Shown here: piece after piece, positions 372 to 60,573 of the stretch
How the letters are laid out: every line of letters starts with the position of its first letter
Position numbering within the stretch: position 1 is the stretch's first letter
DNA from: a virus
IMG/VR virus record: IMGVR_UViG_3300010397_000001
Span: 20,365 to 84,364 of that record
Length of the DNA stretch: 64,000 nt
Strand: one strand, 5' to 3'
Program-made: the position numbers and the translations under genes
The notes under the pieces: model-generated
Database searches by the model: none
Seen by the model: the letters and a program-made list of their open reading frames with translations, nothing else
What the model was told of the DNA's origin: nothing

Positions 372-384
372 TTCATTCACTGAA
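372..384 (+). promoter_or_regulatory. TTCA-N5-TGAA palindrome upstream of the 396 gene
   Basis: Perfect copy of the recurrent 13-bp palindrome, ending 11 nt before the ATG at 396 and after the hairpin terminator. Its position suggests an operator or promoter element. See the finding on the genome-wide motif. Confidence 0.5.
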
Positions 385-395
385 AGTTACGACGC

Positions 396-686
396 ATGAA
401 GAAGATCAAGACTGATCCGCCCATCTATCTGGAGACGATGGCAGCGGTTGCATGGCTGAACCGTAGGCGTCGTGATGTTCCGTCGGGGTATCCGGTTGGC
501 AAGCGGCACCTTGACCCTCGGATGAACCCAACCGGTTGGAAGGCTGGCGGGCGTGACGCTGAGGAGTATCAGTTCAATCCAGAAATGGTCGGTGCGTCAC
601 GTGCTAGCGGTGTTGAGTTCGGGGAGGTGACTTCAGTCAGTGAAAACTGGGATGCGGATGCGACCCAACATTCAGGGGACGAATGA
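396..686 (+). CDS. Hypothetical protein, 96 aa
   Basis: ATG start after a gene-free leader with a palindromic site. The N-terminal half is basic (an NRRRRD run near residue 25) and rich in Pro and Gly; the C-terminal half is acidic. No recognised domain. Its last 47 bases overlap the next gene. The first ATG has only a weak ribosome binding site. Confidence 0.5.
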   Translation: MKKIKTDPPIYLETMAAVAWLNRRRRDVPSGYPVGKRHLDPRMNPTGWKAGGRDAEEYQFNPEMVGASRASGVEFGEVTSVSENWDADATQHSGDE

Positions 687-1014
687 CCCCCAGAACGAGA
701 ACTGCACGCTTGTTCCTGTGACGACAGTGAACCGTCTGCTCCCCAAGCTGTCACCTAACGTGCCGGCGGGGAGCTTCTTCCGCTTCAATGAGGAGACGAA
801 GCTGGTAGAAGCGATCGTCACGCCGGTTGCAGGCTACACAAGCATGGTCCCGATAGCGTGGGATACATGCGCAGACTGCACACGACCCCTCAGGCGCTGT
901 GAGTGCGCCCGTGGTGTATCTGCCAAGTCTTGGATGGTGGAGGCCGCGGAGAAGCGACCTGAGCTGATGCCAGAGGAGGCGCCCAAGAAAAAACTTCGGA
1001 GGATGAAGTTGTGA
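640..1014 (+). CDS. Hypothetical protein with CxxC motifs, 124 aa
   Basis: GTG at 640 follows GGGGAGG at 621-627; ATGs at 652 and 658 are alternatives. The GTG lies inside a TTCA-N5-TGAA palindrome at 632-644. The middle of the protein carries a cysteine pattern CxxC...CxC (CADC, then CEC, around residues 77-88) that could bind a metal. The C-terminus is lysine-rich. The stop overlaps the GTG of the next gene by 4 nt. No family recognised. Confidence 0.6.
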   Translation: MKTGMRMRPNIQGTNDPQNENCTLVPVTTVNRLLPKLSPNVPAGSFFRFNEETKLVEAIVTPVAGYTSMVPIAWDTCADCTRPLRRCECARGVSAKSWMVEAAEKRPELMPEEAPKKKLRRMKL

Positions 1015-1739
1015 CGGAAGACTTTAGCAATATGGCGCGCCGGCTTAGTCGCCTCAACGAGCTTCTGTCCAAGGCCATTCAAGAGGTGGACAAGTACGAA
1101 GAGATTATTGCCGACAACGTCGCTGACTTGCCGGCGTACCTCCACTTCGCGGTGGAGAACATTCTTGGTGTGCTAACCGTCGGCTCTCCGATCAATATGA
1201 AGTACCTGTTGACGGAAGGTCAAGCGATCGAGGTTCACAAGATGTTTGCTCAGATCGACATCCGGTACGCCGGCCAGATGCCGATCACGTGTCAGCTTGG
1301 CATGTGCACTCCTTCCACCGACGCGGCCATGCGCATCCTTACCGCGAGGACGATCGACTGGGACACGTATCAAGAAGAGGCGGCAGTCCTTCTAGAGGGG
1401 CGCAATGCTTTCGGCGCCAGACCGGCACACACGACGTGGCTCATTCACGCCGGCATGTCGACCGCCGTACAGAGCTGCGATATCCCTCATGGCACCATGG
1501 TGGCCTACGCGGCTTCCGCTCGAAACCAGATGGTCAACATCATGGAGATAATCGCGGAACACGAGTGGCCACCTGAATGCACCGAAGTCGTCCTGCGCTT
1601 GATGGGAGCAATGGACGACTCAGCTTTGGGCACCTACAGCAATCCGCTGGACGATCGCATAGAAGGGCAGAAGGATGGAACAGGAGACGGACCAGGCGTC
1701 AGTGCCGACGAACTCGACCGATGGTTCAACCTCGGATGA
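1011..1739 (+). CDS. Hypothetical protein, 242 aa
   Basis: GTG start in a GTGA overlap with the preceding stop. The protein begins with a helical, possibly coiled-coil segment (residues 1-35) and continues as a mixed globular sequence with an acidic, glycine-rich tail. I recognise no family. The 65-nt overlap with the next gene indicates translational coupling. Confidence 0.6.
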   Translation: MTEDFSNMARRLSRLNELLSKAIQEVDKYEEIIADNVADLPAYLHFAVENILGVLTVGSPINMKYLLTEGQAIEVHKMFAQIDIRYAGQMPITCQLGMCTPSTDAAMRILTARTIDWDTYQEEAAVLLEGRNAFGARPAHTTWLIHAGMSTAVQSCDIPHGTMVAYAASARNQMVNIMEIIAEHEWPPECTEVVLRLMGAMDDSALGTYSNPLDDRIEGQKDGTGDGPGVSADELDRWFNLG

Positions 1740-2208
1740 TGAACCGGTGGTGTTGAGCGCACCGGTGTCGGCTCACCTGTTCAGCGAGATGAGGTCGCAT
1801 CTCGTTGTTCAGGTGAAGGATGACGGTACGGGCATCAACCAACTGACGAACGCTCTGGTTGCGCGGTACCAGGCCGCAGTCGCCGAGCTGGGAGAAGCAA
1901 CCGCCGCGATCGTCAAGCACTGTCGGAAGACCGGGCAGACGGTGCCGTTCGACTTCCTCTACCCGTCGGCCCGCACCGTGTCGAAACTTCCGGCGAAGAC
2001 CAAGAAGGGTAAGCCGCTCCCGCCTTGGTTGCTTCCTTCCGACGAGGTGTTCCCCGCTGACTCGGAGGCCGCCAGCTACCACGAGTGCCCGGAGTGTAAG
2101 AAGCAGGTGCAGCACGACACCAGCAATGTCGCTTGTCCGCACTGCCAGGAAGAGCAGCGCAAGAAAGAAGATCCAGCAGCCAAGCCCGGCACGATCTTCG
2201 CAGCGTAG
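1675..2208 (+). CDS. Hypothetical zinc-ribbon protein, 177 aa
   Basis: ATG at 1675, preceded by a purine-rich site (GAAGGGCAGAAGG). An acidic, Ser/Thr-rich N-terminus is followed by a helical middle and a C-terminal zinc ribbon of two CxxC knuckles (CPEC ... CPHC, about 14 residues apart, residues 139-156). A nucleic-acid or protein adaptor role is possible, but nothing shows it. The start overlaps the previous gene by 65 nt. Confidence 0.6.
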   Translation: MEQETDQASVPTNSTDGSTSDDEPVVLSAPVSAHLFSEMRSHLVVQVKDDGTGINQLTNALVARYQAAVAELGEATAAIVKHCRKTGQTVPFDFLYPSARTVSKLPAKTKKGKPLPPWLLPSDEVFPADSEAASYHECPECKKQVQHDTSNVACPHCQEEQRKKEDPAAKPGTIFAA

Positions 2209-2210
2209 AT

Positions 2211-2366
2211 ATGATCGGCCGTCACAGCATTCAGTACGACGAGCGGTGGTTCGTGTGCAAGCGCTGTAAACGGGCCGTTCGTGTCATGCTGGCCAAGCCT
2301 CTGCTCGGCTGGCGGTTCCTACACATCCCACGTCGCTGCCACGACTGTTCAACTAGGAGGCACTAG
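2211..2366 (+). CDS. Zinc-finger microprotein, 51 aa
   Basis: I chose ATG 2211, two bases after the previous stop, over an upstream in-frame start that would lie inside the previous gene. The protein is very basic, with two CxxC pairs (CKRC and CHDC, 27 residues apart), a typical single zinc finger. Function unknown; it is one of many CxxC microproteins in this phage. Confidence 0.6.
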   Translation: MIGRHSIQYDERWFVCKRCKRAVRVMLAKPLLGWRFLHIPRRCHDCSTRRH

Positions 2367-2378
2367 CGACAGACCCTG

Positions 2379-2402
2379 ACTGAATTGGATTCAGTACCTG
2401 AA
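2379..2402 (+). promoter_or_regulatory. Double palindromic site before the HTH gene
   Basis: A perfect inverted repeat, ACTGAAT-TGG-ATTCAGT (2379-2395), overlaps a TTCA-N5-TGAA site (2390-2402), ending 10 nt before the ATG at 2413. The position upstream of a DNA-binding protein gene suggests an operator, possibly autoregulatory. Confidence 0.5.
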
Positions 2403-2412
2403 GGAGAGAAGG

Positions 2413-2682
2413 ATGACGCAGCATAGAGGCGGGGCGCTGTCACGAATTGCCCCGGAAGGTTGCTACACCACGTCTGGTTTTGCCAAGGCGGTCGGTATAT
2501 CTACCGACACGGCCAAGCGTTGGCGCCTGACGGGGACGCTCATTCCATCCGGTGAACCACACGAGAGTGGTGAACTGACGATCTACATCTACACGGAGGA
2601 GGACGTGCAGCTTGGGCGACAGCTTCGTGTCAGCCCGGGTTCGCTCGATCGGCGCCTCAAGCACCTGGAAGTTGCGTCTTGA
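2413..2682 (+). CDS. MerR/excisionase-like HTH DNA-binding protein, 89 aa
   Basis: Good ribosome binding site (GGAGAGAAGG) before ATG. Residues about 17-65 match the winged-helix pattern of MerR or excisionase proteins: a Y-T-T-S-G-F-A-K-A-V-G-I-S helix-turn-helix, then a recognition helix (T-A-K-R-W), then a YIYTEEDV wing and LGRQL helix. It probably binds DNA as a transcription regulator; with no integrase in the window, excisionase is less likely. Palindromic sites flank the gene on both sides, so autoregulation is plausible. Confidence 0.6.
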   Translation: MTQHRGGALSRIAPEGCYTTSGFAKAVGISTDTAKRWRLTGTLIPSGEPHESGELTIYIYTEEDVQLGRQLRVSPGSLDRRLKHLEVAS

Positions 2683-2684
2683 AC

Positions 2685-2743
2685 TTCATGAAGTGAACCG
2701 TACAGGTTGTCTCGTTTGGTAGTGTGATGGCCTGTACGGTTCA
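2685..2743 (+). promoter_or_regulatory. Palindrome plus 13-bp inverted repeat in the leader of the SSB operon
   Basis: TTCA-TGAAG-TGAA (2685-2697) contains the 12-bp perfect palindrome ACTTCATGAAGT (2683-2694). Partly overlapping it, TGAACCGTACAGG (2694-2706) is repeated in inverted orientation at 2731-2743 across a 24-nt spacer. This could be a paired operator or an RNA hairpin. It fills the 115-nt gap before the SSB-like gene. Confidence 0.5.
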
Positions 2744-2797
2744 ACATGTCAATGACGAACGACTCAGCAAATAACGCACGTGGAAGGTAGGTGGCGC

Positions 2798-3541
2798 GTG
2801 CCCATTGGCCAAACAGTCGGCAGTAAGCAGAACATGAAGAGTCTGCTCGCCGGCGGAAACAGCAACGACGAAGTGTGGCGGCTGAAGGACGGCGAGGCGG
2901 CTCACGTCCGCTTTCTGACCGAACCGTCCGGATGGTCGCGGTACTACGAGCACTTCGATTCCAGCCGCGAAGGAAGTCCGTTCATCCCGTGTATCGGGCG
3001 TGACGAGGGCTGCCAGTACTGCGACGACGGTGTCAGGTCTGGAAAGAAGTTCCTCGCGAACATCGTGGACCTTCAGACGGACAAGGCGCGGGTGATCGTG
3101 CTCCCGCAGACGGCGGCCGACTTCCTCTACAAGCGGTGGGCTTCCAAAGACACCATCATGGACCGCCCCTTCACGATCGAGCGCGAGGGGTCCGGCAAGG
3201 ACGACACGACGTACACCGTCGACCACGAGTCTCCGTCCAGGTTCAACACCAAGCGGTTCGAGATCAAGGACCTGGAGGAAGTCCTCCAATCCATGCTCGA
3301 CGGTCCCACGGTCGCGGATGACGATGACGATGAGCCATCGTGGTCGCGCAAGAAAAAGAAGTCGGCGGCGAAGAAGGCTGCTCCAAAGAAAGCTGGTCGT
3401 CGTACGATCGCTGACGAAGACGACGACGAAGACGACGAGGACGAACGTCCGCCGCGCCGGCCGGTCAAGTCGGCCAAGAAGTCCGTACGCAAAGCGCTCC
3501 CTCCCAGCAAGGGCGTCAAGCGCATGCGCAAGATGAACTGA
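2798..3541 (+). CDS. Probable single-stranded DNA-binding protein
   Basis: GTG at 2798 is preferred because GGAAGGTAGG (2782-2791) is an excellent ribosome binding site for it; the upstream in-frame GTG at 2780 has none. The N-terminal ~160 residues resemble phage gp32-like ssDNA-binding proteins: an aromatic-rich core, R-F-L-T-E and a zinc knuckle (C...GCQYC). The C-terminal ~80 residues alternate acidic Asp/Glu runs with lysine-rich H1-like stretches, where gp32 proteins usually have an acidic tail. It likely coats replication intermediates for the DnaE and RecA proteins downstream. Confidence 0.55.
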   Translation: MPIGQTVGSKQNMKSLLAGGNSNDEVWRLKDGEAAHVRFLTEPSGWSRYYEHFDSSREGSPFIPCIGRDEGCQYCDDGVRSGKKFLANIVDLQTDKARVIVLPQTAADFLYKRWASKDTIMDRPFTIEREGSGKDDTTYTVDHESPSRFNTKRFEIKDLEEVLQSMLDGPTVADDDDDEPSWSRKKKKSAAKKAAPKKAGRRTIADEDDDEDDEDERPPRRPVKSAKKSVRKALPPSKGVKRMRKMN

Positions 3542-3590
3542 CCCAGCGAACACCATTCACACCATCAAGCACTGAGAGGGAACAACCAAG

Positions 3591-5789: not shown

Positions 5790-6232
5790 ACGAAACTCGC
5801 GCAAAATTCGGTGCCCTGATCCCCTTCGCTATCGTGGTCGTCGCCATCATGGTCGGATGGTGGTTGATTCCGCCGCTGTCTCCGACGCAGGCCGACGTTA
5901 ACATGCCGTTGCACTACCAGGTGTCTTCTGTGCCGTCTACGGCCGGCAGCGACGCTCTGGTGCCGTCTATGCGCCCCACCACTGTGACGGCAGTGATGCC
6001 CAACCTGGTGGGGATGGACGTACCCACCGCGCAGGGGCACATGAAGACCCTCGGCTTCACACGCGTTCTGTTCATGTCGAACGACTCGACTCTCCGATCG
6101 ATCGACACACCGCAGAACTGGATCGTCGACACTCAGCAGTTCACAGCCGGCGAACCCATCTGGGTGGACGAGCTGATTACGATTGAGTGCCGGTGGAAAA
6201 ACTGGGGGCTGGAATCCCCCACCAAGAAGTGA
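5786..6232 (+). CDS. Single-pass membrane protein with PASTA-like domain
   Basis: GTG in a GTGA overlap; the upstream open frame lies inside the previous gene. Residues 8-28 form a transmembrane helix (two Trp near its end), then a Ser/Thr/Pro-rich linker. The C-terminal ~75 residues have the PASTA pattern: V-M-P-N-L-V-G-M, a helix, L-G-F, then a beta-rich end. PASTA domains bind peptidoglycan or muropeptides outside the membrane. The next two genes are also membrane-associated, so a host-envelope role is likely. Confidence 0.6.
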   Translation: MNETRAKFGALIPFAIVVVAIMVGWWLIPPLSPTQADVNMPLHYQVSSVPSTAGSDALVPSMRPTTVTAVMPNLVGMDVPTAQGHMKTLGFTRVLFMSNDSTLRSIDTPQNWIVDTQQFTAGEPIWVDELITIECRWKNWGLESPTKK

Positions 6233-6264
6233 CCGTGGCAAACCAACACAGGAGGACGTAACCA

Positions 6265-6429
6265 GTGAGTGGCGGCAAGTTGCCCGTGACCGGGCTCAGC
6301 ACAATCATGGTCGGTGGTGTCGCGATCAACCAGGTGAACTTGGCTCTGATCGCCGTGGGCATCGTCATCGTCGGAGCGGTACTCTACCGCTTCGGCTGGC
6401 GCCGCCGGAAGCCGATCAGTTCTCGGTGA
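6265..6429 (+). CDS. 54-aa membrane peptide with LPVTG sortase motif
   Basis: GTG at 6265 follows GGAGG (6251-6255). The 54-residue product starts MSGGK, then LPVTG at residues 6-10, then a hydrophobic stretch (residues ~13-42) and a WRRRK tail. That is exactly a cell-wall sorting signal, but with almost nothing in front of it. It may be a free-standing sortase substrate or competitor, or the motif may be coincidental in a small membrane protein. Its TGA overlaps the GTG of the glycosyltransferase by 4 nt. Confidence 0.65.
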   Translation: MSGGKLPVTGLSTIMVGGVAINQVNLALIAVGIVIVGAVLYRFGWRRRKPISSR

Positions 6430-7919
6430 CCTATAGGGCATGGATGGTGCGGCGTCGTGCATTGCTCGGCGCCGCTCTTCTTGTAATGGCAGGTGCTGGT
6501 TGGTCATACCGACACATCCAGTCGACCATTCAAGAGGTAAATGGCAACGGATCACAGTACGGGCTGATCTTCACCTTCGCCTTTGTGATCCTGGTGTGGC
6601 AGACGTTCCTCTGCTATCGCGAAAAGCCGTGGCGGGCGAATGCCGCGCAGCAGCAGATCCTCAACGCCATGCGTATCGGTGTGGTCGTTCCCGTCTACAA
6701 CGAGGACCCCGCAGCGCTGCGACACTGCCTGGCGTCGCTGATCGATCAGAGCCGACCATTCAACATGATCTACGTCGTGGATGACGGCTCGACGAAAGTG
6801 GACTACGCGCAGGAAGGGGTGATCACCTGGTTCAAGCTCGCGTGCAAGCGCGCTGGCATTCCGTGTGCGTGGGCTGTGAAGGGCAATGGCGGAAAGCGGT
6901 CCGCTCAGGGCGTGGCGTTCATGAACGCAGACGTAGACCTGTGGGCGACGTCTGACTCAGACAGCATCTGGGCGCCCAACGCACTTCACGAGTTACAGAT
7001 ACCGTTCCGAGACACACGGGTGTTCAGCGTGGCCGGCATTGTGGTGGCGCTGAACAACACGAAGAACCTACTCGCCCGGGTAACCGATCTGTGGTTCGTT
7101 ACCGGACAGTTGATCGACCGCTCAGCGATGTCAACGATGGGTTCGGTGTTGGTCAACAGCGGACCCATCGCCATGTACCGCTCCGAGGTCATCATGAAGA
7201 ATCTCGACGGCTATCTCAACGAGACGTTCTTCAAGTGGAAGATCGAGATGAGCGATGACTCGCTGCTGACGCTGTACGCGCTTCAGGAAGGGAAGGCTGT
7301 ACAGCAGCCGACAGCGTTCGCGTTCACTCTGATGCCGGAAACTCTGAACCATCACGTACGCCAGTACCTCCGATGGATGCGCGGTGCGTTCATTCGGTCG
7401 GCCTGGCGGTTCAAGTACCTGCCGCTGAAAACCTACGCGTTCTGGGGTCATCTGCTGGGGTGGATCCAGATGCTGATGAGCACCGTCATCTTCGTGACGT
7501 TGTTCTTCGTTCAGCCGGTGAAGTCAGGCCAGTACTTGTCGGCCTGGCCGTACCTGCTCAGCATCCCGATCCTGATCGGCTACGCCCAGTCTCTGAGGTA
7601 CCTGGCTATTCGTCGCAGTGACCAGACGTTGTGGTCACAGTTGTTCACGGTGGCACTGACACCTCTTGCCACGGTGTGGGCTTTCTTCGGACTCAGGATC
7701 ATCCGGTGGTACGCCATGTGCACGCCCACGGTCGGTGGTTGGGGCACTCGGGAGAACATCGAGTTGACCATGGGTGGTGGCGCCGAACCAAGTGCACCGC
7801 AAGTCGAGGTGCGCCGTATCGTTCCGTGGTACGCGGACCCTGATCGAACGGTGGTCCTGGCAGGCAGCCGTGCGGCCGCGCAACCGACCATCTACGGGCG
7901 CCACAGGGCCGCTGAATAG
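6426..7919 (+). CDS. Hyaluronan-synthase-like family 2 glycosyltransferase
   Basis: GTG 6426 is in a GTGA overlap; the longer open frame lies in upstream genes. There are two N-terminal membrane helices (13-28 and 44-63), a cytosolic GT-A domain and four to five C-terminal helices (337-430). Motifs of class I hyaluronan/chitin/cellulose synthases are all present: VVDDGS (DD119-120), DSDS (177-180), SDDSLLT (DD277-278), Q-Y-L-R-W (313-317) and the WGTR motif (439-442). It probably makes and exports a beta-linked polysaccharide from UDP-sugars. About 500 residues is normal for the family. A terminator follows. Confidence 0.85.
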   Translation: MTYRAWMVRRRALLGAALLVMAGAGWSYRHIQSTIQEVNGNGSQYGLIFTFAFVILVWQTFLCYREKPWRANAAQQQILNAMRIGVVVPVYNEDPAALRHCLASLIDQSRPFNMIYVVDDGSTKVDYAQEGVITWFKLACKRAGIPCAWAVKGNGGKRSAQGVAFMNADVDLWATSDSDSIWAPNALHELQIPFRDTRVFSVAGIVVALNNTKNLLARVTDLWFVTGQLIDRSAMSTMGSVLVNSGPIAMYRSEVIMKNLDGYLNETFFKWKIEMSDDSLLTLYALQEGKAVQQPTAFAFTLMPETLNHHVRQYLRWMRGAFIRSAWRFKYLPLKTYAFWGHLLGWIQMLMSTVIFVTLFFVQPVKSGQYLSAWPYLLSIPILIGYAQSLRYLAIRRSDQTLWSQLFTVALTPLATVWAFFGLRIIRWYAMCTPTVGGWGTRENIELTMGGGAEPSAPQVEVRRIVPWYADPDRTVVLAGSRAAAQPTIYGRHRAAE

Positions 7920-16325: not shown

Positions 16326-16853
16326 ATGCACGACGTGATATTCGGAGTGGACCCAAAGAAGACGGCGTTGGCGGGTGTAGTCATCCGCGAGGACGGCTTC
16401 AGGGTCTACACGCGCACCATGCCTGACGATCTCACGTTGTGCTGCCACAAGGCGTTCCTATGGATGCGGCGTGTGGTGCTGGAAGAGATGAAGCTCAACC
16501 CGCTTGCCACCGTTCATGTCTACCTTGAAAAGGCGTTGGTAGGTCCAGGCAGAAATGCCACCATCGTGCAGGCATATGTCCAAGGTGGACTGATTGCCGG
16601 AGCGGTGGACGCGGGAGCCATAGTTCATCAGGTGAATCAGGCTCGTTGGAAGTCCCAGATCGTGGGGGTGGGCAACGCCACCAAGTCACTAGTCGCTCGT
16701 CACGTGAAGCTTCAGTGGCCGGAACTCTTCGCTCAGGTTCAAGCGCTACCCAAACTGCACGCACAAGACGTACTCGATGCCGGCTGCATAGCCTGGTACG
16801 GAGATAACGAACAGAAGACCCTGAGCAAGAGGAGAGGCCGTGGCCGGCGTTAG
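16326..16853 (+). CDS. RuvC-like Holliday junction resolvase/nuclease
   Basis: ATG start 10 nt after the previous stop. The RNase H-like fold of RuvC is indicated by I-F-G-V-D-P (D9), Y-L-E-K (E68) and the C-terminal helix H-A-Q-D-V-L-D-A (D148, D151), the expected four-acid active site. The length of 175 residues equals bacterial RuvC. It probably resolves branched DNA from recombination or before packaging. It lies next to the Cas4-like nuclease and overlaps the ParB fusion gene. Confidence 0.75.
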   Translation: MHDVIFGVDPKKTALAGVVIREDGFRVYTRTMPDDLTLCCHKAFLWMRRVVLEEMKLNPLATVHVYLEKALVGPGRNATIVQAYVQGGLIAGAVDAGAIVHQVNQARWKSQIVGVGNATKSLVARHVKLQWPELFAQVQALPKLHAQDVLDAGCIAWYGDNEQKTLSKRRGRGRR

Positions 16854-18294
16854 GAAGATGAAGCGTAAGAAGCTTGACGAGATAAAGGCTAAGAACATCG
16901 TTCTGTTCCAGCAAGTTACCAACGTTCCGATCGATTCGTTGAAGCCTCACCCACAGAACGCCAACGAGGGTGACATCGACATGATCGCTGAGTCGATCCT
17001 GGAAAACGGGGTCTACCGGCCGATCGTCATCAACACTCGGAACGGCTTCATCGCGGCCGGTCACCACCAGTGGTTGGCGATGAGGAAGCTTGGCTGGGAT
17101 CAGGTGCCAGTCATCACCATCGACGTTGACGAGCGCCGGCACAAGAAAATCATGCTGGCCGACAACGCTACGGCAGACCGCCGCACCTACAACGAGCGGT
17201 TGTTGGATGAGCTTCTTCAAAGTGTCGGTGACGTCACGGGTACTGGTTACACGGAGCTGGAGGTGGAAGACATCCACACCAGGGCCACTGAAGCGGCACG
17301 TGAAGCCCTGAAGAACATCGAGTCGGGTCCAGGTGCCGCCGACATGGCCGCGGAAGCTCTACGGCGTGCCAGGGGCGGCCAAACGCTGGACAATGACGAT
17401 GAGTACGACGAAGGTGTCGATGAAGGCGCCGGCGGCAGTGACGATTCAGAGTTTGAAGACCTCGGCGGAAAGAAGGACAAGGGTATCGAGGGTGCCGGTG
17501 ATGAGCTGGCTGGCGCATTCCAGTTGAAGGAGGATATGGCCTTCGACGGAGTGGGCGTGTGGGGTATCCCTCGTATCCGTACCGACGCCGGCACGCTGGC
17601 CACATGGGACGACCTGCCAGAAAACCTCTTGGCGTGGGCCGGAAGCGCAACGAAGGACTGGCCTGACCCCACCACTCACTGGCTGTACAACGTGGGGATC
17701 GACAGCGTGTCAGGGATGCCGCGCGACAAGAACGGTCTCTTCAGCCACGTCATCGCCGCGTTCTACTGCCACGACGAGTACTTCGACCCGTACTGGTGGA
17801 ATCCGTCCAAGCACACCACTCGGCTTCTCAACTCAGGTATCAGCACCATCGTGATGCCTGACTTCAGCATGCACACGCCCGGAGAGGAATCACGAGTACT
17901 CAGCTTGTGGTCCTTGTACCGCAGCAGGTGGCTCGGTAGATACTTCCAGGAAGCTGGTATGAAGCTGATTCCTGAGGTGACGTGGGCTACTGCAGACGAA
18001 GGGTTTCTCACCGACTACGTTCTCCCCACGCTCCCGAAGAAGCTTCCGTTGCTGTCGATCCAGGTGCAGACGATCGATCCGGACTCGCCGCTGAACGCTG
18101 CCTATGTCAAGCAGCTACGCCTCATCCTTGACACGGTTAAGCCAAAGGACCTGTTGATTTATCACGGTAAGCAGGGTCGGAGGCTCTTCGACGATGGCTT
18201 GGTTCCGTTCAAGGGGCGAATCAAGTTCGTCGCATCTCGCCTGTACGCTCTTGGTGAGTCAGCCAAAAAGAGAGAGAAGAAGACAACTTTGTAG
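16840..18294 (+). CDS. ParB-domain protein fused to a DUF4417-like domain
   Basis: GTG after GAGGAGAGG. Residues ~28-115 are a ParB/sulfiredoxin-type domain (L-K-P-H-P-x-N, G-V-Y-R-P-I-V-I, A-A-G-H-H-x-W, D-N-A-T-A-D-R). An acidic linker (190-230) leads to a C-terminal ~220-residue domain with PDFS, WSLYRSRW and IPEVTW, which I recall as DUF4417. Such phage fusions lack the classical ParB HTH, so they more likely act as nucleases or CTP-binding switches than in partition. Confidence 0.65.
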   Translation: MAGVRKMKRKKLDEIKAKNIVLFQQVTNVPIDSLKPHPQNANEGDIDMIAESILENGVYRPIVINTRNGFIAAGHHQWLAMRKLGWDQVPVITIDVDERRHKKIMLADNATADRRTYNERLLDELLQSVGDVTGTGYTELEVEDIHTRATEAAREALKNIESGPGAADMAAEALRRARGGQTLDNDDEYDEGVDEGAGGSDDSEFEDLGGKKDKGIEGAGDELAGAFQLKEDMAFDGVGVWGIPRIRTDAGTLATWDDLPENLLAWAGSATKDWPDPTTHWLYNVGIDSVSGMPRDKNGLFSHVIAAFYCHDEYFDPYWWNPSKHTTRLLNSGISTIVMPDFSMHTPGEESRVLSLWSLYRSRWLGRYFQEAGMKLIPEVTWATADEGFLTDYVLPTLPKKLPLLSIQVQTIDPDSPLNAAYVKQLRLILDTVKPKDLLIYHGKQGRRLFDDGLVPFKGRIKFVASRLYALGESAKKREKKTTL

Positions 18295-18497
18295 TGAATG
18301 AATCTATCGAAGCCGTGGTCGGTGACTATCCACTGTGTACCTACATGTGGTCGAGTACAACCATGGAAAAATTTGAATCAGATACTGTCTTCGGCGTAGT
18401 GAACGTTGAAAGAGTCAAGCACCATTACTGTGGCGCTCTTAAAGGTCATGAAGACAATCACTTCTGCCGTGGCTGTGGCGAGGAGACACCTCTATGA
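18294..18497 (+). CDS. Small Cys-rich protein, 67 aa
   Basis: GTG sharing a base with the previous TAG. The C-terminal part has His/Cys residues (HHYC ... HFCRGCGEE) that resemble a rubredoxin- or ribbon-like zinc knuckle. It overlaps the ureohydrolase start by 4 nt. Function unknown. Confidence 0.55.
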   Translation: MNESIEAVVGDYPLCTYMWSSTTMEKFESDTVFGVVNVERVKHHYCGALKGHEDNHFCRGCGEETPL

Positions 18498-19876
18498 CGT
18501 ATAACGACTATCCCGAGTCAACAGACGGATACGAGTACGACGAAGCCGGACGGTCTACAGCCATCCGGCCCTCTCACATTGCCATTCTGGGCGTTCCGTT
18601 CGATGGTGGCACTCTAGGCGAGAAGGTCGGTCAGCGACTGGCTCCACTGGCTATCCGCAACCTCGAAGCGCTCAGCACGATGCTCAGCGCTTACAACGAT
18701 GACGTAGATGGTGAGCAAGTGAGTGTCGTCGACTGTGGCGATGTTCAGCTCGACAGGGCGTCTTCGGCAGGTGCTGCTCACGATCTCATCGAAGAGCGAG
18801 CTAGGGCCATCAAGCCGAACACGAGCATGCTGCTTGCCGTCGGAGGTGACCACAGCATTACCCCCTGGCTGATGAAGGGCGCGCTACTTGAACAGCTATA
18901 CCTCGACGACACGCTGAAGCCGGTCGTTATCCACCTCGACGCGCACACGGACACCTGGGCGCACGAGGAATACGAGGAATACGGTACGGCTAACCACGCG
19001 TCGTGGGTGCGGTGGGTGCTGGAGAACAACTGGGCTCACGAGGTTCACCAGTTCGGTGTGCGTGGTTTCGCGCCGGACGAGAAGGATCTCTACGGTAAGC
19101 CGCTGTTCCGTCACCAGTTGCCGCCGGAAGAGTCGTTCACCAGGGCCATGCAGGTGATCAGCACTGCCGGCCGACCGGTGTACCTCACTGTTGATCTGGA
19201 TGTCTGCGACCCATCCTTCGCTCCAGGTGTGGTAGCCCCTGAGCCAGGGGGATGGACGTCACTTCAACTCATGAATTTCATCACGTCCATCGTGTCATCC
19301 GGTGCTGTTAAAGGGATGGACATCGTGGAGTGTTGTCCGCCTCAGGATTACGCCGACCTTACGGTACGCTTGGCGCATCGGTGTATTGCGGCTTCCATCA
19401 TCGGATTCTCTTGGTACCTGAAGGGGGTTCGGGACGTAGCCGCACTACGACAAATCAGGATGTCGGGAGAGGATGAGCCGGCATCCAGTCTGGAAGGAGA
19501 AGCTGTGCTCGACGCGAACACGAACGTCACTCTCCCGACCGAGGGTGACGAGATCGAAGAGCTGGACATGGACACCGACGACATCATCGAGGGTGGCATG
19601 GCCACCCGCAGCACCAAGGCCGTGAAGAAGGCCGGCCGAGGTGCCAAGAAGGTCGGCCGTGGCACCAAGAAGGCCGCGAAGGGAGCCAAGAAGGCGACCA
19701 AGACGGCGAAGAAGGCCACCAAGGGAGCAAAGAAGGCGACCAAGGCCGCGAAGAAGACGGTCAAGAAGGCCACCAAGACGGCAGCCAAGACCACTCGGGC
19801 CGCGACCAAGCCGGCGGCGAAGACGGCGAAGAAGGCCGCGACCAAGGCCGTGAAGAAGGTCGGCAAGCGAGGCTGA
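18494..19876 (+). CDS. Arginase/agmatinase-family ureohydrolase with histone H1-like tail
   Basis: ATG start in an ATGA overlap. Residues ~25-320 are a complete ureohydrolase with all six metal ligands: GGDHS (H120), LDAHTD (D149, H151, D153) and D-L-D-V-C-D-P (D234, D236). The family releases urea from arginine, agmatine or similar guanidino compounds using two Mn ions. After an acidic linker comes a ~90-residue Lys/Ala repeat tail (371-460) like histone H1 or actinobacterial HU tails. It may make a polyamine such as putrescine near the DNA while the tail binds DNA; the substrate is unproven. Confidence 0.85.
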   Translation: MTYNDYPESTDGYEYDEAGRSTAIRPSHIAILGVPFDGGTLGEKVGQRLAPLAIRNLEALSTMLSAYNDDVDGEQVSVVDCGDVQLDRASSAGAAHDLIEERARAIKPNTSMLLAVGGDHSITPWLMKGALLEQLYLDDTLKPVVIHLDAHTDTWAHEEYEEYGTANHASWVRWVLENNWAHEVHQFGVRGFAPDEKDLYGKPLFRHQLPPEESFTRAMQVISTAGRPVYLTVDLDVCDPSFAPGVVAPEPGGWTSLQLMNFITSIVSSGAVKGMDIVECCPPQDYADLTVRLAHRCIAASIIGFSWYLKGVRDVAALRQIRMSGEDEPASSLEGEAVLDANTNVTLPTEGDEIEELDMDTDDIIEGGMATRSTKAVKKAGRGAKKVGRGTKKAAKGAKKATKTAKKATKGAKKATKAAKKTVKKATKTAAKTTRAATKPAAKTAKKAATKAVKKVGKRG

Positions 19877-29480: not shown

Positions 29481-29660
29481 GTGGCTGATTCAATGCGCGA
29501 AAAGAGCGCTGAATGCTTGTGTCGTTGGGGGCCAGTCACTCGCAGGCATGGGCAGTATGTTGATGCAGGAGACGAACTGCTCGAACTTCATCCAAACTGT
29601 CCTGATCACGGACACCAGATGGGCGAAGAACTTCGAGAACTGAGGAAAGGGGACCGTTAG
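29481..29660 (+). CDS. Microprotein, 59 aa
   Basis: GTG 29481 follows GGGAG (29470-29474), which sits inside a TTCA-N5-TGAA element. Contains C-L-C and N-C-P-D-H, a possible zinc site, with an acidic helical C-terminus. Its TAG shares a base with the GTG of the protease gene. Confidence 0.55.
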   Translation: MADSMREKSAECLCRWGPVTRRHGQYVDAGDELLELHPNCPDHGHQMGEELRELRKGDR

Positions 29661-30526
29661 TGGCAACAACACTCCGCACCGATGGGTCACGATTGGCAGA
29701 CCCGCGTCTCGGCCGTATCCCGAAGTTCGACCCGCGTTCGCTGAACTACAACATCCGCGGTCTCGTGCAGGAAGTCCCGCAGGAAGTCCAGCCGCAGCAC
29801 CTCCGGTCGTACACGTGGGGCGACAGTGACCACCTCGACCAGGGTCAGTGCAGCGGTTGTGTCGGCTTCGGCATCAGCGGCGACCTCGCGGCCAACCCGG
29901 TTCCGGTGCACGGTATCGACAACAAGTACGCGGAAGAGGGGGTGTACTGGAACATCCAGCGCGCCGACGACTACCCCGGTGGCGAGTACCCCGGTGCGTC
30001 CCCGCAGTCCGGCGGCACCTCGGTCACGGACGGCATGCGGTGGGCCAAGTCGCAGGGCTGGTACCTCGAATACCGATGGGCCACCAACGAGCTGGATCTC
30101 GCCTACGCGGTCGGCCACATCGGGCCGGCGATCATCGGAGTCAACTGGTACGAGTCCATGATGGACACCGACAAGGACGGCAACCTCGAAATCAGTGGTT
30201 CCGTCATCGGTGGTCACTGCGTGCTCGTGCGCGGCATCCACGTCATGTCCGGTGGCAAGCGCCGCTACCGCATCCGCAACTCGTGGTCGGCACAGTGGGG
30301 CATGGACGGTGACGCGTGGATCACCTCCGAGGACATGGACCGCCTGATGCACGAAGACGGCGAGTTCGCCATCCCCACGCGTCGCAACCCGGCCAAGCTG
30401 ACGGTCGTCTCGGACAGCGCCATGTTCGTGCAGGGTTCCACGGAAAACACGGTGGAGTACAAGCCGTTGTGGAAGCAGCAGTACGAAGCGGAGCAGACGA
30501 GCGTTACCGGTACGCCGGCACTCTAA
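29660..30526 (+). CDS. Papain-like (C1-type) cysteine protease
   Basis: GTG in TAGTG. The papain active site is complete: oxyanion Gln61 and catalytic Cys67 in D-Q-G-x-C-S-G-C-V-G-F, His186 in G-G-H-C-V-L-V, and Asn207 in I-R-N-S-W-S-A-Q-W-G. There is no signal peptide and only a short pro-region, unlike secreted cathepsins. It may process phage proteins or cleave host targets. Its GC-rich codon use is more like the virion genes than its neighbours. Confidence 0.85.
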   Translation: MATTLRTDGSRLADPRLGRIPKFDPRSLNYNIRGLVQEVPQEVQPQHLRSYTWGDSDHLDQGQCSGCVGFGISGDLAANPVPVHGIDNKYAEEGVYWNIQRADDYPGGEYPGASPQSGGTSVTDGMRWAKSQGWYLEYRWATNELDLAYAVGHIGPAIIGVNWYESMMDTDKDGNLEISGSVIGGHCVLVRGIHVMSGGKRRYRIRNSWSAQWGMDGDAWITSEDMDRLMHEDGEFAIPTRRNPAKLTVVSDSAMFVQGSTENTVEYKPLWKQQYEAEQTSVTGTPAL

Positions 30527-32441: not shown

Positions 32442-33098
32442 ATGACTTCTATTCCAGATGACTACCCGCTGCGCCCTCGTGGCCCGCTGAAGGGTGCGAT
32501 CCCAGGACATCCCGAGTACGACAATCTGCGGTGGTGGAGCAGCGCGGTTAAAGCCCACCCTCAGATTGGCGATGTGCTCAAGGATGACACCGGCCGCGAT
32601 CTATTTAGGTTCGTTGGTCCCACTGACGACCCTGAAGACGGCACAGACTATGAGTGGCGCCCCATCCCTGCTGTGCCGGCAGAACCAAAGCCTGAGCACG
32701 CACCTGGATGCCATGCTGTGCACTACCCAGGCACTCCGTGCTTCGACACCCCTGTTCGCACGGCATTCGTGCATCAACCTGGCTGCAACACCGACCACAC
32801 GCCGGAGCAGCGCTGTATCAAGGTGAACAAGTTCTTCGGCCGCGATGGCATCGAAGATCTCGGTATGGCAGTGGACCGCGAAGCACAGATCCGCAACAAC
32901 CACGCCTACCACGCTCCGAATGACGCCAACACGATTCACGCGCATCAGATCGTGCGTGCTCAAACCACAGACCTCGCCATCTTCTTCGAACGCCTGCTCC
33001 CGGAAAGCCACGAGAAGGAATACGCCCTGAAGGCCATCCGCGAGGCGATGATGTGGGGCAACGCCGCCATCGCCATTCATGGGGTGAAGCAGTCATGA
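32442..33098 (+). CDS. Protein with C-terminal Acb2/Tad1-like hairpin (candidate anti-CBASS sponge)
   Basis: ATG 3 nt after the palindrome. Residues 1-150 contain Cys/His pairs (C90, C100, C115, C125) and no known fold. Residues ~153-213 match the helical hairpin of Acb2/Tad1 proteins: H-A-Y-H-A-P, a helix with I-V-R (R172), L-L-P-E-S-H-E-K-E-Y-A-L, then E-A-M-M-W-G-N-A-A-I-A. In the family this motif binds cyclic oligonucleotide signals and blocks CBASS or Thoeris. Acb2 alone is ~95 residues, so this is a longer fusion. Ligand unproven. Confidence 0.7.
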   Translation: MTSIPDDYPLRPRGPLKGAIPGHPEYDNLRWWSSAVKAHPQIGDVLKDDTGRDLFRFVGPTDDPEDGTDYEWRPIPAVPAEPKPEHAPGCHAVHYPGTPCFDTPVRTAFVHQPGCNTDHTPEQRCIKVNKFFGRDGIEDLGMAVDREAQIRNNHAYHAPNDANTIHAHQIVRAQTTDLAIFFERLLPESHEKEYALKAIREAMMWGNAAIAIHGVKQS

Positions 33099-56505: not shown

Positions 56506-56907
56506 ATGGATTCAGTCAATCAATTCCTGGTAACCGTCGAGGGCATCGACGGGTACTTCATGACGTTCGAGGGCGGCAACATCACGTCGCAAACGAACAA
56601 GATGTACGACGGCGGAGCGACTATTCCGTCCGTAGTAGCCAACCGGCCGTTGGTGGACGATGTCACGGTGACGCGCGGATACGAACCGCTCCGCGACGAA
56701 GACATCATGACCGAGATGCGTCAGCTCGTCGGGGTGTTCACCACCACGCTCAGCAAGACGCCAACCGACCGCAACCTCGTGGTGACCGGTCGGCCCATCG
56801 TCTACCCCAATGCTTTGCTGAGTGGCTTCCAGGAGATCAACGCGGACGCCAACGGCACCGACGCCGGTATCTGGGGACTCGTGTTCACGGTGCCCAGCGT
56901 CCGGTAA
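56506..56907 (+). CDS. Tail tube protein
   Basis: ATG after GAGGGG. 133 residues, beta-rich, with G-Y-F-M-T-F-E-G-G, V-T-V-T-R-G-Y-E-P-L-R-D and G-R-P-I-V-Y-P; a conserved place directly after the sheath. Fits the T4 gp19-like tube family in contractile phages. Confidence 0.8.
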   Translation: MDSVNQFLVTVEGIDGYFMTFEGGNITSQTNKMYDGGATIPSVVANRPLVDDVTVTRGYEPLRDEDIMTEMRQLVGVFTTTLSKTPTDRNLVVTGRPIVYPNALLSGFQEINADANGTDAGIWGLVFTVPSVR

Positions 56908-56952
56908 TACCGCACCACTGTTTCAGGGAACCATCGGTAAGCCACCTGTAGA

Positions 56953-57028
56953 GGCCGTAGGCGGCAGCGAACCACCAGACCCATAGTCGTACGTGGGCGC
57001 GGAGGTTCTAAGCCGCCTACGGCCTTTT
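56953..57028 (+). terminator. Long-loop hairpin terminator between tube and chaperone genes
   Basis: A 13-bp perfect repeat (56953-56965 with 57012-57024) encloses 46 nt that contain another small hairpin, followed by TTTT. Probably attenuates transcription between the abundant tail proteins and the chaperone genes. Confidence 0.6.
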
Positions 57029-57038
57029 ACAGGGCCAA

Positions 57039-57051
57039 TTCAACGAGTGAA
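57039..57051 (+). promoter_or_regulatory. TTCA-N5-TGAA site before the tail chaperone
   Basis: Perfect copy (TTCA-ACGAG-TGAA) ending 12 nt before GTG 57064, just after the hairpin. Confidence 0.5.
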
Positions 57052-57063
57052 AGGCAAAAGGTC

Positions 57064-57645
57064 GTGGCGACCAACACAGGCAAGGTCAAGACGGTGGGGC
57101 GAGCAGGCACACCACCGAAGCAGGACGAGGCGTTCGAAAACCTCGAACTGACAGACGGAGAGATGGACTTGGGAACCGTCTTCGACGACTTCATTCAGGA
57201 GATCAACCGTACTGTCACCAAGAAGCCGAAGAAGTACAAGGTGCCGGCGCGGCCCAACGTCGTGCTGGAGTTCGACGTCAACGTCGACTACCCGGTGTAC
57301 CAAGCGTGGATCAAGAAGTGCACCAAGGGCAAGGGTGACAAGGCGGAACTGGACTACAAGGCTTTCGCCGCCATCGTCCTGAGCCAGAAGAACATCGGCA
57401 TCTGGTTCGGCGACGTGAAGATCACCGATGTCAAGGGTGACGGCCACGATCTCATCCTGGCCGACAAGGTGTTCCACAACATGATCGGTGTGATGGTCGG
57501 AGGTACCAACGCGGCCATCAAGAAGTTGTTCGGAGCGGACAGCGACGTCGTGAACCTGGTCGTCAAGTTGGTCGACGACTTCGGCTACACACTCGGAGCC
57601 GATGGCGCTGAGGAAGGCGACGAAGATTCCCCTTTGGACGACTAG
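57064..57645 (+). CDS. Tail assembly chaperone (short form)
   Basis: GTG with a weak site. 193 residues, located between the tube and tape measure genes, as for lambda G-like chaperones. It has an acidic C-terminal tail and ends just after a slippery heptamer, so most ribosomes stop here and a fraction shift to make the longer form. It binds the tape measure during tail assembly. Confidence 0.75.
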   Translation: MATNTGKVKTVGRAGTPPKQDEAFENLELTDGEMDLGTVFDDFIQEINRTVTKKPKKYKVPARPNVVLEFDVNVDYPVYQAWIKKCTKGKGDKAELDYKAFAAIVLSQKNIGIWFGDVKITDVKGDGHDLILADKVFHNMIGVMVGGTNAAIKKLFGADSDVVNLVVKLVDDFGYTLGADGAEEGDEDSPLDD

Positions 57646-57848
57646 CCGCCGCGTACAAGGCTAGTTCGTACCTGAGGCTGGCCGCGCGGGTTGGCAAGTA
57701 CTTCCACATCGATCCGCTGATGGTGTTGAAGAGCAGCTATACGGACTTCCTGGTTCGGTTGGCGGCCTACAACTACATGCAGGACGTTGAAGAGGCTGAA
57801 GAAGCCAAACGTCGTGAAGCGGCTGAAAAGGCCACTAGAAAACGATGA
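57064..57848 (+). CDS. Tail assembly chaperone, -1 frameshift form
   Basis: C-CCT-TTG at 57630-57636 is a perfect X-XXY-YYZ slippery site in the zero frame, 7 nt before the TAG. After a -1 shift the frame runs 70 more codons to the TGA at 57846-57848, giving a helical, basic extension (Y-K-A-S-S-Y-L-R-L-A, then E-A-E-E-A-K-R-R-E-A-A-E-K). The extension has no start or ribosome binding site of its own, which supports the fusion. This is the G-T arrangement of tailed phages. Confidence 0.75.
57630..57636 (+). promoter_or_regulatory. Programmed -1 frameshift site CCCTTTG
   Basis: Read as C CCT TTG in frame 0 and CCC TTT G after the slip. It fuses the chaperone to its downstream extension. Confidence 0.7.
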
Positions 57849-57864
57849 GTGAGGGCAGGGACCG

Positions 57865-60573
57865 ATGACAGCGCCAGGTGGCGATGAAGAAGATGTCACA
57901 GTCAGGCTCAAGGACGAGTTCTCGGTCCCTGCCCGCACTACCCGCGAAGAGGCGGAGCTACTAGATAAAGCGATTAAGAGGCTGAATCGCACTCTGCTTG
58001 CCTACAACAAGCGGGTCACCGAATCCACAGCAAAGACTCTGGAGTTCGCGGCTGCTCTGAAGACAGCGTCCGCAGCAGCCGACCCTCTTGGCGAAAAGCT
58101 GAAGCACAACAACGAGACGATCAAGGACTACAACCAGACCATCAAGAAGTCGAAGGATGAGACAGAGAAAGCTGCCAAGGCTACGGAGAAGCACGCTGAC
58201 GCAGCGAAGAAGGACGAGAAGGAACAGGGCAAGCTGCTTAAGGTCTTGAAGGGCATCCCTGGTGTGCTCGGCAAGATATGGGGGCCGCTGTTCATGGTGG
58301 GCAAGGGTTTCGCCTTGCTCGGAGCAGCCGGCGGCATCCTGTTGGCTGTCAAGGGAGCCGTCGCATTCATCTCTGCGGCAAGCAACCTGCTAGCCATAGC
58401 TGGATTGCTACCTGTGGCGTTGTTCAGTCTCGTGGCGGCCTTCATGACTTTAAAGGTAGCCACTGGTGGTGTTGGCGACGCTATAAAGGCGCTCGCCAGT
58501 GGTGATGCCGCTGGGCTAGAAGCAGCACTTAAGAAGCTGTCCCCAGCCGCTCAGCAGTTCGTTAAGTCGATCAAGCCATTCCTGCCGCAGTTCAAGGCCA
58601 TCAAGCAGGCTGCTCAGCAGAATCTCTTTGCTCCGCTGAACCAAGGCTTCACTGATGTACTCACGAACCTGCTTCCGATATTCAAGACCGGCATGTCAGG
58701 CATCGCCAACGTGTTCGGCAGTATCGGACTTCGCATAGAGAAGTTCCTTGCCAGCATCAAGGGCAAGAGACTCTTCTCTGACATCTTCGACTCAGGCCGC
58801 ATCTCGGCAGCTAACTTCGGCGCTGCTGCTGTTCCGATCCTGACCGGTCTGAGCGATGTCGTTCATGCGATGAAGGACAACTGGACCAACCTGACTGCTG
58901 AGATCGGACGTGGCGGGGTCAAGTTCGGTGAATGGCTGTCGAAGATATCTACCGATGGCTCGCTTGAGGCAATGTTCAAGCGAGCAGTCGATTTTGCCAA
59001 GCAGCTCTGGAGTACAGGCAAGGACATCTGGAGTATCTTCCACGGGCTGGGCAACATCCTGAAGGCCGGTTTCGACTCAACTGGCTTGACAACCTTCATC
59101 AAGTTGGCCGCGGAGTTCGTCAACAGCGCTCAGGGCTTCCAAGACATATCGCAGATCTTCGACACTCTCGCGCAGCTTGGTTCGGCTGTGGCGCCGCTGT
59201 TCAACCAGTTGGCCGATGTCCTCCTGCAATCCGTCATCCCGGCCATCGCGCCCATCGTCAACGGCTTGGCTCCCGGTCTGGTCGCGCTAGTCACTGCCAT
59301 CGGGCAAGGCTTGCAGATGCTAACGCCGCTCTGGGGTCCATTGGCTGAGGCGATCACTGCTGTCCTGACGGCACTGACGCCGATCCTGCCGGTACTGGGG
59401 CAGTTCTTGAGTCTGGTGGGGAAGGAACTTACGCTGATCCTCCAGTACCTTGCTGCGATCCTGCCGCCGGTAGTTGAAGTGTTGAGCACGCTCTTCGGAA
59501 CCTGGCTCGGTCTCGTCAACCAGCTTGCTTCGGCGTTGCTTCCGCTGTTGATCCCTCTGATTCAGCAGATGGCAGATTCGTTCACGCAGTTTGCTCCGGT
59601 ACTCGCACAGATAGCGCAGGTATTCCAAGACCAGTTCGCAGCGGTGCTGCCTGAGTTGGCTCAGAACTTCGTCGCCTTGATTCCACCGTTGCTACAGGTT
59701 GGCCAGCAGTTGCTTCCAGCTCTACTCCAGGTCATCCTTGCCATCCTGCCTGAGCTTCCGGACCTGATCGGTTCCGCTCTGTCGTTGGTGGTTGCCTTCA
59801 GTAAGCTCCTGCCGGCGATCGTTCCACTAATTCCTGTCTTCATTCAACTCATACAGAACATGTTGGTGTTCACTCCAGTTGTTGTCGGAGTCATCTGGAT
59901 TCTGGCGAAGATGGCAACCGCGTTCTTCGCCACTCTGGGTGTCGTCATCAACTTCGTGGTTTCGATCATTGCTTGGTTCGCCAAGATTCCTGGAGAGATC
60001 ATCAGCGCGTTGGCAGGCGTGGTTTCAGCCATCACCTCGCCATTCCGGAATGCCAAGGACAACGTGATCGGCATCATCAACGACATCAGGGGTGCGATCA
60101 GTGACTTGATGAGGTCGATTGGTGGCGTCGGTGGTGCTCTTAGCAAGTTGAATCCCTTCAAGGCGTTCGGTGGCCCAGTTGTCGCCGGTCAGCCGTACAC
60201 GGTTGGCGAGATAGGCAAGGAGATGTTCGTTCCCAACATCGGCACGCCGTACATGATCGGTCAACACGGTATGGAGACAAGAACCTTCGGCAGCGCAGGC
60301 ACCGTCATCCCGTCCTTCATGTTGGAGTCGATGGACAGGATGGCTAAGTCTGCTGAGAGGCACGCTGCCCAGTCGGAGGCCGCCGCTGCACAACAGGGTG
60401 ACCGAATCGCTGCGATGTCCGGTGCACGTCGCTCTGAGGGCGCCGGGGACACCCACTACACAACGAACCAGTTCAGCTTCGATGGAGCAGTGTTCAAGGA
60501 CGAAATCGACGTAGAGAAGGCAGTACTTAAGGCGCTGAAGAAGGCTGAGCGCGATAAGAAGGAGCGCCGTTAA
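57865..60573 (+). CDS. Tail tape measure protein
   Basis: ATG 57865. 902 residues: an N-terminal coiled coil (~30-135), a hydrophobic segment (~138-205), a long helical and hydrophobic-repeat middle, a second membrane-like block (~630-720) and a polar Gly/Ser-rich C-terminus. Sets tail length; at about 0.15 nm per residue it predicts a tail near 135 nm (inference). No lytic or peptidase motif seen. TAATG couples it to the next gene. Confidence 0.88.
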   Translation: MTAPGGDEEDVTVRLKDEFSVPARTTREEAELLDKAIKRLNRTLLAYNKRVTESTAKTLEFAAALKTASAAADPLGEKLKHNNETIKDYNQTIKKSKDETEKAAKATEKHADAAKKDEKEQGKLLKVLKGIPGVLGKIWGPLFMVGKGFALLGAAGGILLAVKGAVAFISAASNLLAIAGLLPVALFSLVAAFMTLKVATGGVGDAIKALASGDAAGLEAALKKLSPAAQQFVKSIKPFLPQFKAIKQAAQQNLFAPLNQGFTDVLTNLLPIFKTGMSGIANVFGSIGLRIEKFLASIKGKRLFSDIFDSGRISAANFGAAAVPILTGLSDVVHAMKDNWTNLTAEIGRGGVKFGEWLSKISTDGSLEAMFKRAVDFAKQLWSTGKDIWSIFHGLGNILKAGFDSTGLTTFIKLAAEFVNSAQGFQDISQIFDTLAQLGSAVAPLFNQLADVLLQSVIPAIAPIVNGLAPGLVALVTAIGQGLQMLTPLWGPLAEAITAVLTALTPILPVLGQFLSLVGKELTLILQYLAAILPPVVEVLSTLFGTWLGLVNQLASALLPLLIPLIQQMADSFTQFAPVLAQIAQVFQDQFAAVLPELAQNFVALIPPLLQVGQQLLPALLQVILAILPELPDLIGSALSLVVAFSKLLPAIVPLIPVFIQLIQNMLVFTPVVVGVIWILAKMATAFFATLGVVINFVVSIIAWFAKIPGEIISALAGVVSAITSPFRNAKDNVIGIINDIRGAISDLMRSIGGVGGALSKLNPFKAFGGPVVAGQPYTVGEIGKEMFVPNIGTPYMIGQHGMETRTFGSAGTVIPSFMLESMDRMAKSAERHAAQSEAAAAQQGDRIAAMSGARRSEGAGDTHYTTNQFSFDGAVFKDEIDVEKAVLKALKKAERDKKERR

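Follow-up and report, generated by a model that had tools for sequence, protein, structure and literature searches.

We analysed a 64,000-nucleotide stretch of viral DNA (bases 20365-84364 of the 84,364-bp IMG/VR virus record IMGVR_UViG_3300010397_000001, here called the window) throughout which the 13-bp palindrome TTCA-N5-TGAA recurs. An exact search located 52 perfect copies in the window and 65 in the entire genome. The explanation that we prefer, to which we give a probability of roughly 0.45, is that the palindromes would be binding sites of a phage-encoded homodimer acting genome-wide, most likely a small winged-helix protein, which would serve as a nucleoid or marking protein and as a regulator of its own promoter. 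The original prediction, in which the copies were found by eye, gave a count of about 49. All the coordinates listed in it are correct, and the repetition is stronger than was stated; three sites had been overlooked (Table 1).

The predicted peak at a gap of five nucleotides (k=5) is conspicuous, i.e. no other spacing is comparable. At the other gaps between 0 and 20 the window holds 0-5 copies of TTCA-Nk-TGAA, including the only two copies at k=4, which had also been noticed by eye, and the whole genome holds 0-10 copies at the other gaps up to 59. The counts of TTCA and TGAA give an expectation of 2.7 copies if independence is assumed, and a reversed-pattern control has no copy in the whole record. 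In an unbiased scan of all 256 half-sites at 31 gaps, TTCA-N5-TGAA ranked first in the genome, about 50 orders of magnitude ahead of any other dyad.

Genes were called with a simple codon-usage method; 44 of the 65 sites lie fully inside predicted genes and 19 fully outside. A few copies overlap ribosome-binding sites (RBS) or stop regions, and one could suppose that the excess is an artefact of coding or composition, e.g. of frequent codon pairs, but we give this practically no probability. In synonymous-codon shuffles, which keep the proteins and the codon usage (n=200), the mean was 3.5 in-gene copies and the maximum 10, as against 43 observed, which rules out a coding artefact. Non-coding DNA alone has 19 copies at k=5 versus 0-2 at other gaps. 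Both usable reading frames are occupied evenly (20 and 23 in-gene copies; the third frame would require an in-frame TGA), and relatives with similar proteins hold only 0-4 copies of this word. The shuffle excess, the non-coding excess and the equal use of both stop-free frames indicate that selection acts on the DNA. The sites, which occur within as well as outside genes, are placed nearly at random: the coefficient of variation of the intervals between the 65 sites is 0.83 (random placement, 0.81-1.18), which leaves the earlier impression of roughly even spacing weakly supported and leads us to reject a strongly regular one.

The original count was one of perfect copies, but many near-matches are sites too. 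The combination of one perfect half with TTGA in the other is found 39 times against 3.6 expected. The same one-sided enrichment is seen for TTAA (11 vs 0.6), TTTA (7 vs 0.6), TCCA (11 vs 3.5), TACA (8 vs 2.7) and TTCG (12 vs 4.9), while half-site variants changed at the first T show no enrichment. The compensated change, i.e. TTGA paired with TCAA, is present in only 4 copies (1.7 expected). If any base is allowed at the third half-site position (TTNA-N5-TNAA), the genome has 135 copies at gap 5 and 3-17, about 9, at other gaps; with a palindromic motif model the number rises to about 200 sites. In other words, next to the 65 perfect sites there is a total of about 135-200, or approximately one per 400-600 bp. 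The centre and the flanks carry no information, in agreement with the earlier remark that the centre lacks a consensus.

This variant profile is that of a predicted protein dimer that recognises T-T-(C>G>A>T)-A in each half. An RNA hairpin was also considered and rejected: one-sided variants, which break the pairing between the halves, are frequent, unlike compensated ones, and this points to a double-stranded DNA site and not an RNA stem. The dimeric DNA-binding protein with many sites that had been proposed is thus well supported by the two-fold symmetry, the fixed gap and the degeneracy of the half-sites, and further by the DNA-level selection in all allowed frames and the other half-sites found at the same gap in relatives (see below). 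The split palindrome also resembles the recognition sites of some enzymes, and the copies might be places at which a restriction, modification or other sequence-specific enzyme acts. We regard this as very improbable, as the one-sided mismatched variants that are so strongly enriched would not be read by a strict enzyme, restriction targets in phages tend toward depletion rather than enrichment, and a search for two families of N6/N4 DNA methylases (PF01555, PF02384) found none in the window phage or in six relatives.

The record ends in a 123-bp terminal direct repeat (record start and window end), and a baseplate-J reading frame continues over the joined ends, so the genome looks complete or nearly complete and circularly assembled. 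The window phage is contractile-tailed, with sheath and baseplate-J homologues. Its relatives are the Gordonia phages GMA6, DalanDe, ScarletRaider and Chidiebere and the Brevibacterium phage Cantare, with identities of about 50% in the terminase, 55% in the capsid protein and 50% in DnaE; from this kinship the host is probably an actinobacterium. An 89-kb IMG/VR contig, G001, has a terminase 54% identical to that of the window phage. Several relatives are represented by fragments; the one with the closest capsid protein (L017, 68%) is only 7 kb long and is without TTCA-N5-TGAA. A search for terminase relatives in genome contigs gave distant fragments only, and no relative was found near enough to the window phage for measuring the turnover of the TTCA sites.

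Related phages keep the layout of the palindrome with other half-sites, which are specific to the lineage. G001 has 74 copies of TGTC-N5-GACA (62 in genes vs 3.1 in synonymous shuffles), and its relaxed form with T[AGT]TC occurs 207 times compared with about 11 at other gaps. DalanDe has 23 copies of TTGC-N5-GCAA (21 in genes vs 3.0 in shuffles), and 51 of the relaxed form TTG[CT] compared with about 6 at other gaps. In the genomes other than its own, none of the three N5 words rises above background (0-4 copies). A wider dyad, TTTG-N9-CAAA, is common to ScarletRaider (14 copies), Chidiebere (9) and GMA6 (6), where 0.4-0.6 are expected; the in-gene copies are 12 vs 0.5 in shuffles for ScarletRaider and 7 vs 0.4 for Chidiebere. 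Between the latter two phages the sites are kept more often than controls with the same letters at other gaps (7/11 vs 8/35, P=0.018; 8/11 vs 12/42, P=0.010). That the layout persists while the half-sites are entirely different implies repeated joint change of the binding protein and of hundreds of sites.

This lineage specificity bears on the idea that the sites bind a host-encoded factor, either as a decoy or through a hijacked nucleoid or regulatory protein of the host. Such a factor would account for the absence of an obvious annotated phage repressor, and sites of the host regulator CtrA are reported in phage genomes (PMC9437464). But DalanDe and the pair Chidiebere/ScarletRaider have unrelated motifs although they share the host genus, i.e. 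the motif follows the phage lineage, and we see only a slight chance for a host factor.

In some 200 phage loci of more remote kinship, the same scans brought up no dyad of comparable strength (the best, around 1e-9, were in short or low-complexity loci). No convincing motif was seen in Cantare, G002, G005, G007, G009 or G012, and G003 has only a weak TTCG-N9 signal. On the genomes with weaker motifs, expectation maximisation ended up following codon periodicity, and its result was discarded. An apparent enrichment of CCCGGG in G009 equals the count expected from its composition and was rejected. GTGA-N5-TCAC in Cantare (12 vs 1.6) and the dyad GTCC-N5-GGAC are modestly above their synonymous shuffles and are not counted as established. 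GTCC-N5-GGAC is a second N5 dyad of the window phage, with 15 copies in its genome (window positions 3190, 3737, 10687, 14748 and others) and 13 in G002; its in-gene copies (13 vs 3.7 in shuffles, maximum 10) are mostly in one frame, and the excess could be a codon effect. The open-access papers searched yielded no mention of palindromes of this kind for these phages; the paper on the GMA6 genome gives counts of repeats and of palindromes from 14 bp upward, and its main text does not contain the motif (PMC4524720).

As regulators and nucleoid proteins often control their own gene, cognate sites were counted upstream of each of 106 genes in the window phage, G001 and DalanDe. The first of the 106 was a gene just upstream of dnaB (genome 11968-12474, minus strand; window -8396 to -7890, thus outside the window) that encodes the winged-helix protein. 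It has 5+3+2 sites (own genome, G001, DalanDe) vs 2.1 expected (P=7e-5, about 0.007 after correction for the 106 genes). In the window phage, the 400 bp upstream of this gene contain 5 sites with at most one mismatch at gap 5, compared with 0.4 at other gaps, and this region is the densest stretch of sites in the genome. ScarletRaider and Chidiebere have 3 sites of the N9 type apiece just upstream of the same gene. The proteins of this family have about 155-225 amino acids, with Lys/Ala-rich tails around a compact core, and AlphaFold gives the core of the G001 homologue a winged-helix topology (confidence score pLDDT 88). The protein belongs to no Pfam or PHROG family and matches no PDB entry significantly. 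All genomes that have a clear motif carry the gene; in Cantare it was not found. Location and co-occurrence favour the winged-helix protein as the putative binder, short of proof.

Several observations weigh against this assignment. The upstream excess in G001 and DalanDe is weaker under the gap control, and most of the sites in the cluster are imperfect. The location of the cluster is a divergent control region, and its sites may be those of a different regulator or the mark of an origin. The protein has no significant structural match. G009 has the gene and no convincing motif, G003 has it with its weak TTCG-N9 signal, and one protein family would have to accommodate both the N5 and the N9 spacing. 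Finally, the gene is found in the same 14 phage records as that of a MerR-like helix-turn-helix (HTH) protein, which G009 also has, so presence and absence cannot separate the two candidates.

This HTH protein, which the original prediction had put forward as a possible binder, would be a global phage regulator, and it remains the main rival. It occurs in all motif-bearing isolates and, like the winged-helix gene, was not found in Cantare; perfect sites lie across its RBS and behind its stop codon (Table 1). Its recognition-helix residues vary between phages with different motifs, which is not independent evidence, as general phylogeny tracks motif similarity. On the other hand, the cognate sites upstream of its gene are at chance over the three genomes (1+1+0 vs 2.1), relatives of the protein also occur in phages for which no motif was detected (L205, L232, G007 and others), and MerR-type operators are usually wider dyads, which we also count against it. 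We consider the HTH protein a rather unlikely reader of the sites. A ParB-like binder had also been proposed: the protein with ParB_N and DUF4417 domains (window 16840-18294) is conserved in relatives including Cantare, a phage without a strong motif, and is therefore improbable as the reader of a lineage-specific site.

Further repeats were observed near or in the winged-helix gene. A perfect 18-bp inverted repeat with a 23-nt loop (genome 12587-12645, window about -7777 to -7719) lies amid the site cluster in the divergent region upstream of the gene and is a possible origin or control element; a second, imperfect 29-nt pair is at genome 13142/13403. In G001 (L094 10350-10440), three copies of TGTCAAGAAGACA with 39-bp spacing are found within a Lys-rich repeat of the winged-helix gene itself.

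In the explanation that we prefer, TTNA-N5-TNAA (with C preferred at N) would be the double-stranded DNA site of the homodimer, and the winged-helix protein would bind the genome of its own phage as a sequence-addressed nucleoid or marking protein, besides regulating its own promoter. The protein may serve to compact, mark or protect the phage DNA, or to damp transcription globally. A basic-tailed candidate and a site every 400-600 bp, within genes and outside them, fit a protein that coats, loops, marks or protects the phage genome or globally damps its transcription; sequence does not tell these roles apart. Whatever the function, it must be important, since more than 100 in-gene binding sites cost codon freedom genome-wide.

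The nearest known system is that of the stoperators, to which the sites had been compared from the beginning. According to such a reading, an immunity repressor would block elongation in the prophage or in a superinfecting phage, and the dispersed in-gene sites could serve as roadblocks. The stoperators of Cluster A (L5-like) phages are likewise genome-wide 13-bp sites whose word tracks the binding protein and diverges with the repressor between relatives (PMC6550527), and this part of the comparison, i.e. lineage-specific words spread over actinophage genomes, stands. However, Cluster A stoperators, which belong to temperate phages, number about 20-30 per genome, lack symmetry, follow the direction of transcription and lie mainly between genes (PMC6550527, PMC5559632); in the Gordonia A15 phages the asymmetric 13-mer GGGGATTGTCAAG occurs at 21-22 sites, described as intergenic (PMC5559632). 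The sites of the window phage are two-fold symmetric, hence without orientation, and mostly intragenic; the numbers here are 65-207 per genome. No tyrosine or serine integrase (PF00589, PF00239) was found in the window phage or in six relatives, and GMA6 is described as lacking temperate features (PMC5559632); the ParB_N and DUF4417 protein leaves some chance of a parABS system. The palindromes are partly like stoperators but fail the tests that define them. The lack of an integrase and of a methylase of the tested families, together with the description of GMA6, makes an immunity role, like restriction-modification, unlikely, and less probable than marking or compaction of the genome.

Other dispersed sites share single features with the palindromes. 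The conserved inverted repeats of phage phiC31 are about 18 in number, longer, mainly intergenic and bound by the c repressor of a temperate phage; they too are inverted repeats dispersed over an actinophage genome, whereas the sites of the window phage are far more numerous, shorter and intragenic. The chromosome or plasmid organisers MatP (at matS), Noc, SlmA and KorB read, as dimers, short palindromes dispersed over many places including genes, and organise the whole molecule. Their motifs are conserved across relatives, whereas the half-site here changes from phage to phage, and no homologue of these four proteins was identified in this analysis. With its compact winged helix and Lys/Ala-rich tails, the candidate binder resembles linker-histone-like and HupB-like proteins. 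Sequence has little influence on where linker histones and HU bind, whereas the sites described here are sequence-specific.

We tentatively mention a wider possibility, itself rather doubtful, that a clade of apparently lytic actinophages may build a sequence-addressed chromatin, in which a fast-evolving winged-helix protein with Lys-rich tails and of no known family would bind 100-200 palindromes dispersed in coding DNA as an address of self versus non-self for phage DNA, the whole genome of each lineage being re-written to a new half-site upon a change of specificity. The phages would offer a rare, testable case of genome-wide co-evolution between a binding protein and its sites, and the winged-helix protein, should it prove to be the binder, would represent a new family among phage proteins that form a nucleoid or mark the genome. 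DalanDe, ScarletRaider and Chidiebere are isolated Gordonia phages, so the idea is open to bench testing.

Table 1. Perfect TTCA-N5-TGAA sites and the HTH gene in window coordinates (exact search; the sites have no strand)
Feature	Position	Strand	Remark
site TTCAGTACCTGAA	232..244		overlooked in the original prediction
site TTCATTCACTGAA	372..384		
site TTCAGTCAGTGAA	632..644		
site TTCAGTACCTGAA	2390..2402		overlaps RBS of HTH gene at 2413
MerR-like HTH protein, 89 amino acids	2413..2682	+	rival candidate binder; conserved in relatives
site TTCATGAAGTGAA	2685..2697		after stop of HTH gene
site TTCAGACCGTGAA	4884..4896		
site TTCAGTGGCTGAA	5659..5671		
site TTCAGCCGGTGAA	7510..7522		
site TTCAGTTCATGAA	7996..8008		overlaps site 8001
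site TTCATGAATTGAA	8001..8013		
site TTCAGGACATGAA	8031..8043		
site TTCAACTCTTGAA	12351..12363		
site TTCACACCATGAA	13453..13465		
site TTCATCAGGTGAA	16624..16636		
site TTCAGAGTTTGAA	17445..17457		
site TTCAACTCATGAA	19263..19275		
site TTCAGCAAGTGAA	20108..20120		
site TTCAACTGCTGAA	23448..23460		
site TTCACACCCTGAA	23541..23553		
site TTCACGCCGTGAA	24470..24482		
site TTCAAGGAGTGAA	24812..24824		
site TTCAGTCGATGAA	25489..25501		
site TTCATTCACTGAA	26974..26986		
site TTCAGAAGCTGAA	27345..27357		
site TTCAGGGAGTGAA	29466..29478		
site TTCAAAAGATGAA	30963..30975		overlooked in the original prediction
site TTCATAGGATGAA	32426..32438		
site TTCATGGGGTGAA	33076..33088		
site TTCAGCCAGTGAA	33908..33920		
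site TTCATCCGCTGAA	34400..34412		
site TTCAGCGCCTGAA	35138..35150		
site TTCAAAGCATGAA	35340..35352		
site TTCAACTGATGAA	36431..36443		
site TTCAGATCCTGAA	37150..37162		
site TTCATATCGTGAA	39563..39575		within terminase large subunit gene
site TTCAGTCATTGAA	41585..41597		within portal gene
site TTCACTGGTTGAA	42944..42956		within portal gene
site TTCAACAACTGAA	44024..44036		
site TTCATGGTCTGAA	44611..44623		
site TTCACCACGTGAA	45012..45024		
site TTCAGCGCGTGAA	45043..45055		
site TTCATCTGGTGAA	45934..45946		
site TTCAGCGGTTGAA	46842..46854		
site TTCACGAGATGAA	47146..47158		
site TTCAAGAGATGAA	50461..50473		start region, major capsid protein gene
site TTCAGCGGATGAA	52642..52654		
site TTCAGTCTGTGAA	52884..52896		
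site TTCAGCCGCTGAA	53393..53405		
site TTCATCCGATGAA	56126..56138		within tail sheath gene
site TTCAACGAGTGAA	57039..57051		
site TTCATGCGATGAA	58862..58874		within tape measure gene
site TTCATGGGATGAA	62527..62539		overlooked in the original prediction

A few other genes of the window deserve mention. The product of window 32442-33098 carries the Acb2/Tad1 hairpin domain at its C-terminus (PF24729, E=3e-11), a domain of phage sponges for immune cyclic nucleotides, and this is likely an anti-defence gene. An arginase-family protein (window 18494-19876; PF00491, E=7e-53), an unusual cargo for a phage, is also found in G001 (31%) and not in the Gordonia phages. The product of window 29660-30526, which is shared with G003, weakly resembles papain-like cysteine proteases (PF00112, E=1e-4). 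A family 2 glycosyltransferase is encoded at window 6183-7919; among the compared relatives only G001 has one (39%).

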